64,000 nt of DNA, taken from contig CP006977.1 in assembly GCA_000508305.1 (NCBI GenBank), forward strand, positions 528,621 through 592,620, written 5' to 3'. The position numbers and the translations under genes are program-made. Below the pieces are notes generated by a model. It did not search any database. It had not been told where the DNA came from and worked only from the letters and a program-made list of their open reading frames with translations. Positions 1 through 3,034 of this stretch are shown here, piece by piece. Source of the stretch: Sulfolobus acidocaldarius SUSAZ. GTDB taxonomy: Archaea; Thermoproteota; Thermoprotei_A; Sulfolobales; Sulfolobaceae. Each line of letters starts with the position of its first letter. The first letter of the stretch is position 1.

Positions 1-452
1 AACTAGGAATACAAAAAGATCTACTTACTGATCTATCATACCCATTACCTATAGTAGAAAAACCTTTCGAAAAGATATCTAAGAAATTTAATCTAACAGA
101 ATCGGAAATAGTTGAGTTAATTAAAGAATTAAAAGAGAAAGGGGTAATAAAGGATTATGGAGCCACTGTAAATGGGGAAAGAATAGGAATAGTAGAAAAT
201 GCTATGTTTTTGTTAAATTCTGATGACATAGAGAGCTCTTGCTACAACATAGCTACAAAATTAAAAGAAGCTACTCATGTAGTGCTAAGAGAAGCAGACA
301 AAGAATGGGATTACTTATGCTACGCTATGATACACGCTAGAAATAAGAACCTGATTTTTGAGACAGCAAAAAAAGCAATTGAAATTAGTAATGCAAAAAG
401 CTATATGTTGCTATTTAGTCTGGACAATCTTAAACCGGGTATTGTAATTTAG
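1..452 (+). CDS. Siroheme decarboxylase-like (AhbA/AhbB, Lrp-fold) protein, 5'-truncated by window edge
   Basis: The frame is open from base 3, before the ATG at 204, so the gene enters from outside the window. The visible part has a winged-helix-like half ([17 protein letters not shown], then [22 protein letters not shown]) followed by an Lrp/AsnC-like alpha-beta half. The family-typical tract is seen as [22 protein letters not shown], cut here as [10 protein letters not shown] then [12 protein letters not shown]. Such proteins decarboxylate siroheme to didecarboxysiroheme in the alternative heme pathway of archaea. The heme gene cluster at 40.5-46.2 kb supports this, but AhbA and AhbB cannot be told apart here. 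The 3' end overlaps the convergent pheA by 23 bp. Confidence 0.75.
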
Positions 453-1266
453 ACATAGACCCTTTAATCTTTACTGAAAGAGTTATCTGAGATATTTCCT
501 TTATCGCACTATCTACTTTATCCTCGTCTAATCCTCCCTCAAATTCTACATAAAAATAATATTTCCATGGTTCTACTTTTAATGGTCTAGAATATATCAT
601 TGTAAGATTAATGTTATTTACATAAAATCTTTCTAATACTTTATACAAAGATCCAGGTTTGTGAGGTATAGTAAAGAATATCATCGTCTTTTCTCCAGAT
701 ATTTTAAATCTGTTGGAAATTATTACAAATCTAGTTAAATTTACCCCATTTTCCACATTTTCTAATAAAATATTTAGATTATTTATCTGAGCAGCATACC
801 TTGAACATATTGCAGCAGCATATTTATCTTCTGATGCATATTTTGCTGCAATAGATGTACTCTCGACAGGAATTATATTATGTAAGCCTAATTCCTCTAG
901 TTTTTCTTTGGCTTCTTGAATCGCATGAGGATGAGAATAGACTTTTTTCACATCTTTGATAGAATTTATTGCTTGATTGGAAGCGATTACAAGATTTATG
1001 TTTTTCTCTACTTCATAATTGACATAAATATTCTCGTATCTGAATAAATTGTCTAATGACTCGTGTACTGGACCTTCTTTACTATTTTCGATAGGTACAA
1101 CACCTATACTATTTGAGTTCTGATTAACACTTTTGAAAATTTCTGTTATCGTTCTTACGGCTATTTTTTCTCCACTAAAACTTTCTGCTACCTCATACGA
1201 AAAACTACCTTTAGGACCTAGATAGTAAATTCCATTTGGATCAACACTCTGAGTGAAGTTTGGTAT
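430..1266 (-). CDS. pheA: Prephenate dehydratase, with no canonical start codon
   Basis: It converts prephenate to phenylpyruvate in phenylalanine synthesis. From the N-terminus the frame reads [10 protein letters not shown], then [18 protein letters not shown] (both family signatures), the catalytic TRF motif in NLTRFVII, and a C-terminal ACT domain ([13 protein letters not shown], with SRP in YSRPLK) for feedback control. The first GTG (951) would delete about 100 conserved residues. Between the in-frame stop at 1279-1281 and 951 there is no ATG, GTG or TTG. An ATT at 1230-1228 sits exactly where Met is expected (x-YYLGP), and an ATA lies at 1266-1264. The listed end uses the ATA; the true start is unresolved. 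The gene follows ilvA by a few bases. Confidence 0.82.
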
Positions 1267-1273
1267 AAAAACT

Positions 1274-2515
1274 TTACTCTACCAAGGTTGCTTCAATACC
1301 GTCTAATGCCAACGAATATAGAAATTCTGATAAACTTTCACTAACAGGGATCTCAAATACCACATGGATTTTCGTGAAACCAGGCTTAACATCAGTACTC
1401 ATTCTATCATGAATTACGTCAATTACATTCCCTCTAATTTGTGCTACCCTACTTAATACTCTATTTAAATAACCAGGTTTATCTGGAACTAATACTTTAA
1501 CTTTCACTACTCTTTTAGATTTGAAGAGCATTCTATCTATAATCCTAGCAAGCAATGACATGTCTATATTTCCTCCACTAATTATTGGAATTACCTTTTT
1601 ACCATAGCCTACCTTTATCTTTCCTGAGATAATCGCAGCAACACTTGCAGCCCCAGCGCCCTCCGCTATGGTTTTATTTCTTTCTAATAGATATAGTATT
1701 GCGTTGGCTATATCTTCATCATCAACTAAAACTATATCGTCAACTAACTCACTTATCACTTCATAAGTTATCTTTGACGGATTTTTTACTAGAATTCCGT
1801 CAGCTATAGAAAAAGATGGCTCAATTTCTACTAATCTTCCTAACTCTACTGATACCTTCATAGATGGTGATGCAGAAGACTGTACACCTATAACTTTTAG
1901 ATTGTTCCTTTTAGCTTTTAATGCAATAGATATACCAGATATTAGACCCCCTCCTCCTATTGGTACTACAACAACATCAGGTTCTGCTTCCAGTAATTCT
2001 AGTCCCAGAGTTCCTTGACCTAATATTACATTTAAATCATCATATGGATGAACTAAAACAGCATTAGTTTCCTTTATTATCTCTTCAGCTTTTTTCATAC
2101 TTTCATGTAAAAACTTTCCATGAAGAATAACATTAGCTCCATAATTTTTCGTAGCTAAATATTTTGATATAGGAGCAGTTTCAGGCATAACAACAGTAGA
2201 TTTAATCCCTAAGACGCTTGCAGCATATGCTACACCCTGTGCATGATTGCCCGCAGATACTGCTATTACTCCTCTTTCTCTTTCAGCTTGCGAAAGGCTA
2301 ATTAGTTTAGAGAATGCACCTCTTACTTTAAATGAACCAGTCTTTTGCAAATTCTCCATCTTAAGATAAACTTTAGCTCCTGCAATATTAGAAAACGTGG
2401 AAGAATAATCTAGTGGAGTTTTATGAATATATTGTTTTATTGATTCATGAACTTTAACTATTTGATCAAAATAATTAAGATAGCTCATCAGGAAAACCCC
2501 TGCTCTCTTCATCAC
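1274..2515 (-). CDS. ilvA: Threonine dehydratase, PLP-dependent, with ACT domain
   Basis: It deaminates L-threonine to 2-oxobutanoate for isoleucine synthesis. The PLP lysine lies in [10 protein letters not shown] near residue 60, the phosphate-binding glycine loop is [10 protein letters not shown] near residue 185, and the last ~80 residues form an ACT domain ([19 protein letters not shown]). The 413-residue length fits the TdcB-like, ACT-containing archaeal and bacterial form. The first ATG abuts the stop of the HIT gene (2516). A second ATG nine codons in (MSYLNYF, 2488) looks more family-like. pheA follows directly, so the two amino-acid genes are probably cotranscribed and translationally coupled. 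Confidence 0.9.
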
Positions 2516-3034
2516 TCAGCGATCGAGGACCTCCTCATCCTTAGTATATTCTAAATATAACTTATTATAAGTATCTTCAAGAGATTCAGGCAATACTTTT
2601 GCATTTCCTATAACTGGCATAAAATTAGCATCACCATTCCATCTAGGCACAATATGTATATGCACATGTTGTTCTATTCCCGCCCCTGCAACCCTACCTA
2701 TATTTATACCAATATTAAATCCATCAGGAGAGTACACTCTTCTTAATTTCTTTATACTTGTCCTTACCATCTTGAAAAGTTCAGTAAGTTCATTATCATC
2801 AAGTAATTCTACACTGCTAACATGTTTATATGGGACAATCATAATATGACCTGGATTATACGGAAATGTGTTTAGAACTATATACGTATAGGTAGCTCTA
2901 AAAACCACCATATTTTCTCTATCTCTTGATCTATCATATGCAAAATTACAAAATATGCAAGGTTCTTTCTCACTTTTTATTTTTGAAGCAGAAGTTACAT
3001 ATTTTGATCTCCAAGGAGCCCATAAAATATCCAT
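2516..3034 (-). CDS. HIT-family nucleotide hydrolase/transferase
   Basis: The histidine triad is visible as [10 protein letters not shown] near residue 120 (HxHxHxxP). The N-terminus has the paired cysteines CIFCNF that in many HIT proteins bind zinc. Members act on nucleotide-phosphoramidate or dinucleoside polyphosphate substrates; the exact substrate cannot be read from sequence. At 172 residues it is of normal length. It lies head-to-tail before ilvA with one base between stop and start, and about 40 bp downstream of radA, so it is probably part of the same transcription unit. Confidence 0.88.

Follow-up and report, generated by a model that had tools for sequence, protein, structure and literature searches.

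How is pheA of Sulfolobus acidocaldarius SUSAZ translated when its conserved reading frame opens without a start codon? We addressed this question in a window of 64,000 nucleotides (assembly GCA_000508305.1, contig CP006977.1, positions 528,621 to 592,620), which is the whole stretch of DNA that was analysed and comes from a genome of a single contig of 2.06 Mb. Coordinates below are window positions, and pheA lies on the minus strand. The original prediction held that the frame is full-length but has no ATG, GTG or TTG start, and that a ribosome terminating on ilvA could reinitiate at an AUU or AUA codon. The frame is indeed real, conserved, devoid of a canonical start and in need of unusual initiation, but reinitiation from ilvA on AUU or AUA is not the best fit; a family-wide, deeply conserved start that is out of frame with pheA and needs a −1 shift is the better reading.

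A complete pheA frame without a canonical start

Positions 1278-430 of the minus strand form a frame for a full prephenate dehydratase that ends in an ACT domain, and both domains pass the curated Pfam cut-offs (PF00800, 153 bits against 25.2; ACT, 30.6 against 27). As predicted, the frame is intact over 1281-430, with an in-frame TAG followed by open sequence to the final stop. The first ATG, GTG or TTG after that TAG is the GTG at 951, which lies far inside the conserved domain of prephenate dehydratase; the codons upstream of it carry the family-conserved N-terminal stretch and GVVPIENS. Both codons that had been put forward as starts occur in the start region, AUU at 1230-1228 and ATA at 1266-1264. 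In a congeneric genome (G023), the pheA match extends over all 282 codons at 97% protein identity and likewise has no in-frame start.

pheA directly follows ilvA, the stop of which is at 1276-1274, as the reinitiation proposal supposed, but ilvA ribosomes need not be re-used because a TATA-like box lies between the ilvA stop and pheA (Table 1). At the other end of pheA, a convergent AsnC/NirDL-like gene (3-452, plus strand; PF17805 and PF22451) overlaps the pheA 3' end at 430-452, and a protein end resembling this neighbour adjoins pheA at L014, L018, L026, and L030.

An out-of-frame ATG and a five-codon ORF at the pheA start

The original prediction overlooked an ATG at 1235-1233, relative to which the pheA frame is −1. 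This ATG opens a five-codon ORF whose bases read AAT GGA ATT TAC TAT CTA GGT in the pheA frame. The two overlapping frames stand in a 0/−1 relation, and joining them would give the full conserved protein with the N-terminus MEIYYLGP. The TTT of the short ORF forces ATT for the pheA isoleucine, although ATA is the commonest isoleucine codon in these genes (ATA 57%, ATT 31%).

Table 1. Features of the pheA start region and its surroundings, in window positions.
Feature	Position	Strand	Evidence or remark
Upstream ilvA-like gene (PLP-dependent enzyme)	1274..2515	-	PF00291, E 2.9e-78, and ORF
TATA-like box TTTTTATA, centre 32 bases before ATG	1264..1271	-	Matrix scan
TGATCC, complementary to GGATCA of the 16S rRNA 3' end	1238..1243	-	16S tail CTGCGGCTGGATCACCTCAT
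Conserved ATG, out of frame with pheA; putative initiation codon	1233..1235	-	29/29 block-bearing genes
Five-codon ORF ATG GAA TTT ACT ATC TAG (MEFTI*)	1218..1235	-	Stop kept here in 28/29
GAA (Glu), putative P-site slip codon	1230..1232	-	Sole P-site codon with three pairs after a −1 slip, 29/29
TTT (Phe), putative A-site 'hungry' codon at the slip	1227..1229	-	Invariant, 29/29
TAG, stop of the short ORF	1218..1220	-	Overlapping pheA Leu codon is CTA/TTA in 27/28
pheA main frame, Ile ATT to stop	430..1230	-	PF00800, E 9.7e-45; PF01842, E 2.9e-07

The block is conserved beyond the level of the protein

The ten bases ATGGAATTTA are identical in all 29 pheA genes that bear the block. A pattern search recovered the extended block from 29 of the 211 genomes of the order, with one copy per genome, and no further copy of the element was found in the genome. 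The carriers are 27 of 31 Sulfolobaceae genomes (27 of the 30 that have pheA) and two genomes of another family (G049 and G051), and they represent 11 genera. The three other pheA-bearing Sulfolobaceae genomes (genus g10, 3/3) have lost the ATG, GGA, and ATT alike and have an in-frame start, so that loss of the block coincides with an in-frame start in every pheA gene of this genus. The fourth Sulfolobaceae genome without the block (G022), an assembly that is 87% complete, gave no pheA match.

An alignment of Sulfolobales starts had been suggested as a check on the missing start codon. Among the 29 genes with the block, 13, spread over six genera, lack any ATG, GTG or TTG from the in-frame stop upstream to the beginning of the conserved protein, and 16 have some such codon in frame upstream. 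The start-codon gap goes beyond chance, as it recurs in G023 and, counted over all relatives with the block, in these 13 genes. The out-of-frame start also suggests that gene finders may misplace the start of PheA, or shorten the protein, in many of these genomes.

We compared synonymous change at conserved codon columns, counted as steps on the gene tree, across 28 genes (the 32 start-aligned genes minus L027, L028, and L030, which have no block, and L029, which has an internal in-frame duplication). The amino acid is kept in at least 26 of the 28 genes at 74 codon columns, 72 of which show 2-14 synonymous steps. The only two without synonymous change are the Gly GGA and the Ile ATT of the block, each present in 28/28 genes; elsewhere in pheA, other glycine columns show 5-12 steps and the other two isoleucine columns show 6 each. 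The wobble base of the pheA leucine codon that keeps the UAG changed in 1 step, compared to 4, 7, 8, 9, 10, and 10 in six other leucine columns. The codon preceding the glycine shifts among AAT, GAT, and CAT (N, D, and H) while the ATG stays. Outside the block, no invariant run in pheA exceeds 5 bases, compared to 10 within it.

As controls, we used four window genes across the same family of genomes, namely two that we take to be radA and a HIT-like gene and two more; 31 genomes were searched, 29-31 of them matched per gene, and the count was made on 29 sequences for each gene. None of 448 conserved columns in these genes was free of synonymous change, and their longest invariant run was 5 bases. 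The HIT-like gene keeps its ATG start in 29/29 sequences while its early codons vary freely. Thus, conservation of the block goes beyond the protein level, because the wobble bases of its glycine and isoleucine codons are frozen and those of the 448 control columns are not. Fixed in this way are the start codon, GAA and TTT of the short ORF, with its stop held less tightly; such excess synonymous conservation across relatives at a frame overlap is a mark of programmed −1 frameshifting.

Two side observations concern individual genes. PheA of G006 (L029, genus g6) is longer than that of its relatives, as an in-frame duplication repeats SKSSISEIFDGVSKGALGVVPVENTLEGPVNETL near the N-terminus. In G021 (C1:227100-228046, L111), the radA match is split by a change of frame into two pieces that overlap, with a TAG present, which may be either an error or a true frame change.

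A −1 slip at GAA would join the two frames

A conserved start signal one step out of register suggests that ribosomes slip back one base after initiation. From the arrangement of codons, we think it probable that initiation at the AUG at 1235-1233 followed by a −1 slip at the GAA codon yields PheA. A ribosome would initiate at this AUG, out of frame with the enzyme, and after AUG-GAA would move one base back, its tRNA-Glu exchanging GAA for the overlapping GGA (1233-1231). The slipped ribosome would then read AUU UAC UAU CUA, giving M-E-I-Y-Y-L-G-P and the rest of the enzyme, and ribosomes that do not slip would read UUU ACU AUC and end at the UAG after five residues.

The pairing at the GAA codon is consistent with this route. 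As one-tRNA P-site ('hungry') −1 slippage demands, the P-site tRNA can re-pair in the −1 frame: moving from GAA to GGA gives two Watson-Crick pairs and one G-U pair in the middle, and is the only re-pairing without a mismatch in 29/29 genes. We rejected slips away from the GAA, and +2 moves, which are mismatched in most or all genes; −1 slips at the Met codon, the Phe codon, and codon 4 mismatch in all genes and those at codon 5 in 26/29, the other 3/29 re-pairing there through TCC or TCT. The slip product is also of the expected length. Homologues with a canonical start place the Met two codons before the Ile/Val (MRVGFLGP in L077 and MKIGFLGP in L079; ATG at −2 in L031 and L033), so that MEIYYLGP equals MRVGFLGP and MKIGFLGP in length. 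The AUU had been called the site of the expected Met, but L077 and L079 put that residue two codons earlier, where the ATG at 1235-1233 lies one base off.

We searched for the elements of a classic −1 site. No X_XXY_YYZ heptamer is present, the 0-frame sequence being G_GAA_UUU, and the A-site tRNA-Phe would be mismatched at the first position on AUU. A conserved downstream stimulatory structure, pseudoknots aside, was not found either (mean z −0.53, n=29; RNAalifold −1.27 kcal/mol for the region −12 to +90 in 23/29 sequences, near-identical ones being left out). Because heptamer and structure were both sought and neither was found, we do not file this case as classic heptamer frameshifting; it works like one-tRNA −1 slippage. 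Several points count against a slip: the middle G-U pair that it needs, the absence of a classic heptamer and of a conserved downstream structure, the in-frame canonical codons upstream in 16 of the 29 genes, and a possible in-frame upstream start in genus g7.

A simple origin of the frame relation would be the loss of one A from an in-frame ATG GAA ATT. A search for this ancestor in 398 genomes of the phylum (19 of them Sulfolobaceae), with one mismatch allowed, returned no exact match and five near-matches with one mismatch each.

A second, more tentative proposal concerns regulation. As UUU (Phe) would be the codon waiting in the A site and pheA encodes an enzyme of the phenylalanine pathway, the out-of-frame start may be linked to phenylalanine supply, a hypothesis under which a Phe-sensing programmed −1 frameshift at codons 2-3 would control pheA in Sulfolobaceae; judged by codon identity, this is conceivable, though we would not bet on it. 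A shortage of Phe-tRNA would lengthen the pause at the A-site UUU, increase slipping, and so raise prephenate dehydratase when phenylalanine is short, and Phe-replete ribosomes would read the UUU and then stop at the UAG.

Promoter and ribosome-binding context

Using a hand-made matrix with no shuffle control, we found the best TATA-like match at −28 to −38 from the ATG in 27/29 genes and elsewhere in L029 and L067. The position of the box would place the transcription start a few bases before the ATG, on an assumed spacing of 26 bases from box to start, compared to the about 28 bases given in an excerpt of PMC8553660. This would put the mRNA 5' end in many species close to the GATCC ahead of the ATG, and GATCC-like bases are found at this place in most relatives. 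In the window, the TGATCC at 1238-1243 is possibly a weak ribosome-binding element or the mRNA 5' end. In L067 (G049), a GGTGGT just before the out-of-frame ATG is complementary, with G-U pairs, to the 16S tail of the window's genome. The AUA at 1266-1264 can be set aside as a start, as it is not conserved, lies within the TATA-like box, and would be upstream of the mRNA start.

Alternative routes to PheA

The main rival is initiation at the AUU at 1230-1228 itself, giving MYYLGP..., with the MEFTI* mini-ORF serving as a translated leader or decoy that would tune AUU use, either through competition or because ribosomes terminate and then back up. It ranks as the strongest rival because the ATT is as invariant as the other bases of ATGGAATTTA. 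The AUU is conserved (29/29) in relatives that have no canonical start, as expected of an AUU-initiated gene; the 13 genes without a canonical in-frame start would need such a codon, and the kept stop fits a short ORF that is translated. The AUU does not, however, lie at the aligned start of the homologues, in which the Ile/Val is internal. A plain AUU start also leaves the invariant AUG and GAA and the near-invariant UAG unexplained, and adding the mini-ORF does not by itself account for the GAA. For reinitiation, ribosomes would have to retreat by about ten bases to reach a codon that is not canonical. The infC gene of E. coli starts with AUU. pheA resembles it in having an in-frame AUU near the start of a conserved protein and differs in that homologues have their Met two codons further upstream and that an invariant AUG precedes the AUU by five bases. 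Finally, according to excerpts of PMC6237735 and PMC8211752, S. solfataricus aIF1 disfavours start codons that are not canonical. On balance we regard AUU initiation as unlikely.

We find it distinctly unlikely that translation starts upstream in frame, at a canonical or near-cognate codon that would in many cases lie at the very 5' end of an mRNA without a leader, to give an extension such as (M)VDPDGIYYLGP. The best case for it comes from genus g7, all seven species of which have an in-frame start at one place (GTG in 5, ATG in 1, and TTG in 1), approximately 23-25 bases past the TATA-like box and near the predicted mRNA start. An ordinary leaderless in-frame start is therefore possible in g7, though this genus keeps the ATG block unchanged. 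Some g6 species have a near-cognate CTG, ACG or AAG at that place, the residues D-P and N/D-G appear conserved, and the 16 genes with some in-frame canonical start could in principle use one. In the other 13, an upstream start would be unusable unless non-canonical. L067 can have none, because a TAA stands directly before its AAT GGA ATT, and in L003-L006 and L016 a stop closes the frame six codons ahead of the GGA. Moreover, a cause acting on the protein freezes neither the glycine and isoleucine wobble bases nor an xAT whose residue varies among N, D, and H.

It is improbable that the block is a DNA- or RNA-binding site, such as an operator or a promoter initiator element, that overlaps the start by chance. 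Ten invariant bases are compatible with protein binding, and the block lies in the predicted transcription start region, downstream of the TATA-like box. Against this, the conserved bases track the codons of the short ORF (start, GAA, TTT, and stop), the element is single-copy in each genome, the block is lost in the three g10 genomes, which have an in-frame start, and Rfam recognised no known RNA family in window positions 1-3000.

A change to the transcript through RNA polymerase slippage, editing or splicing could in principle add one base and bring ATG GAA(A) ATT into frame, as GGAATTT with one more A or T would be translated as MEIYYLGP or MEFYYLGP; the runs are just AA and TTT, too short for known slippage, no sign of an intron was noticed, and we hold this to be highly improbable. 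A sequencing error or a pseudogene is refuted: one missing base would produce the same picture in a single genome, but the block and its frame relation recur in 29 genomes of 11 genera, and the downstream protein is strongly conserved.

Relation to known recoding and regulatory systems

The comparisons below draw on excerpts of the cited papers. The one archaeal cellular −1 programmed frameshift reported there is fucA1, for an alpha-L-fucosidase of Saccharolobus solfataricus, in which two ORFs overlap by 40 bases and the shift takes place on A_AAA_AAT within that overlap (PMC8211752). The pheA case is similar in its −1 frame relation, in the family of archaea concerned, and in that the full protein would require the shift. 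The fucA1 shift, however, takes place inside a longer ORF with the heptamer, a stem-loop, and rare codons, whereas the pheA shift would follow the start by two codons, that heptamer and a conserved structure are both missing, and the arrangement is conserved family-wide. If correct, pheA would add a family-wide case to this single counted one (PMC8211752).

The one-tRNA P-site mode of −1 shifting is said to need no stimulatory element and to be triggered by a lack of aminoacyl-tRNA (PMC8211752). pheA would share with such 'hungry codon' shifts the P-site slippage, the empty A site, and the dispensability of a stimulatory structure; it differs in that the excerpts describe those shifts as an effect of starvation (PMC8211752, PMC5009743). 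PMC5009743 states that no starvation-specific trans-frame proteins from hungry-codon frameshifting are known, an absence on which a Phe-responsive pheA would bear.

Bacterial RF2 (prfB) offers a functional parallel, as the P-site tRNA slips there while the A site awaits a limiting factor and, if the phenylalanine hypothesis is right, in both cases the gene product relieves the limitation (PMC5009743). RF2 involves a +1 shift at a stop codon, whereas pheA would involve a −1 shift at a sense codon with Phe-tRNA as the limiting factor. Like enterobacterial pheL, the archaeal locus has a short translatable ORF with a Phe codon beside a phenylalanine biosynthesis gene (PMC5009743). pheL acts by transcription attenuation upstream of pheA, and frameshifting on it in E. 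coli is called incidental (PMC5009743); the archaeal ORF instead overlaps the start of pheA itself and has a single Phe codon. With one Phe codon in five, a mini-ORF that overlaps the gene, and no conserved structure between −12 and +90, the locus does not have the features of pheL-type attenuation.

PMC5009743 lists possible frameshift cases in archaeal viruses and in Mg-chelatase, and the main text of the GeneTack survey, so far as excerpted, does not mention prephenate dehydratase (PMC3711429). The open-licence literature yielded no account of frameshifting or of an unusual start in archaeal pheA, a search there for two peptide strings as a trace of the trans-frame product gave no hit, and the published passages searched contain no frameshifting so near a start codon; the last point may reflect the difficulty of such shifting. 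If the phenylalanine proposal is true, pheA would carry a ribosome-borne amino acid sensor within codons 1-3 of the very gene that it regulates, conserved across an archaeal family. A family-wide case in a gene for amino acid synthesis, in experimentally tractable archaea, would also bring two questions within direct reach: cellular −1 frameshifting in archaea and starvation-specific products of hungry-codon shifting.

pheA starts in other families of the order

In other families of the order, the Met lies 4-7 codons before the Ile/Val position, or further. One pheA gene from another family (L075, in G067) has neither an in-frame ATG, GTG or TTG before the conserved protein nor the Sulfolobaceae block; a CTG stands four codons ahead of the conserved protein, behind GGAGGTG. 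In L065, L066, L072-L074, and L076, all from other families of the order, ATTGTTCG precedes the pheA protein; in L066 no in-frame ATG or GTG is nearby, and elsewhere ATTGTTCG sometimes stands behind a close one.
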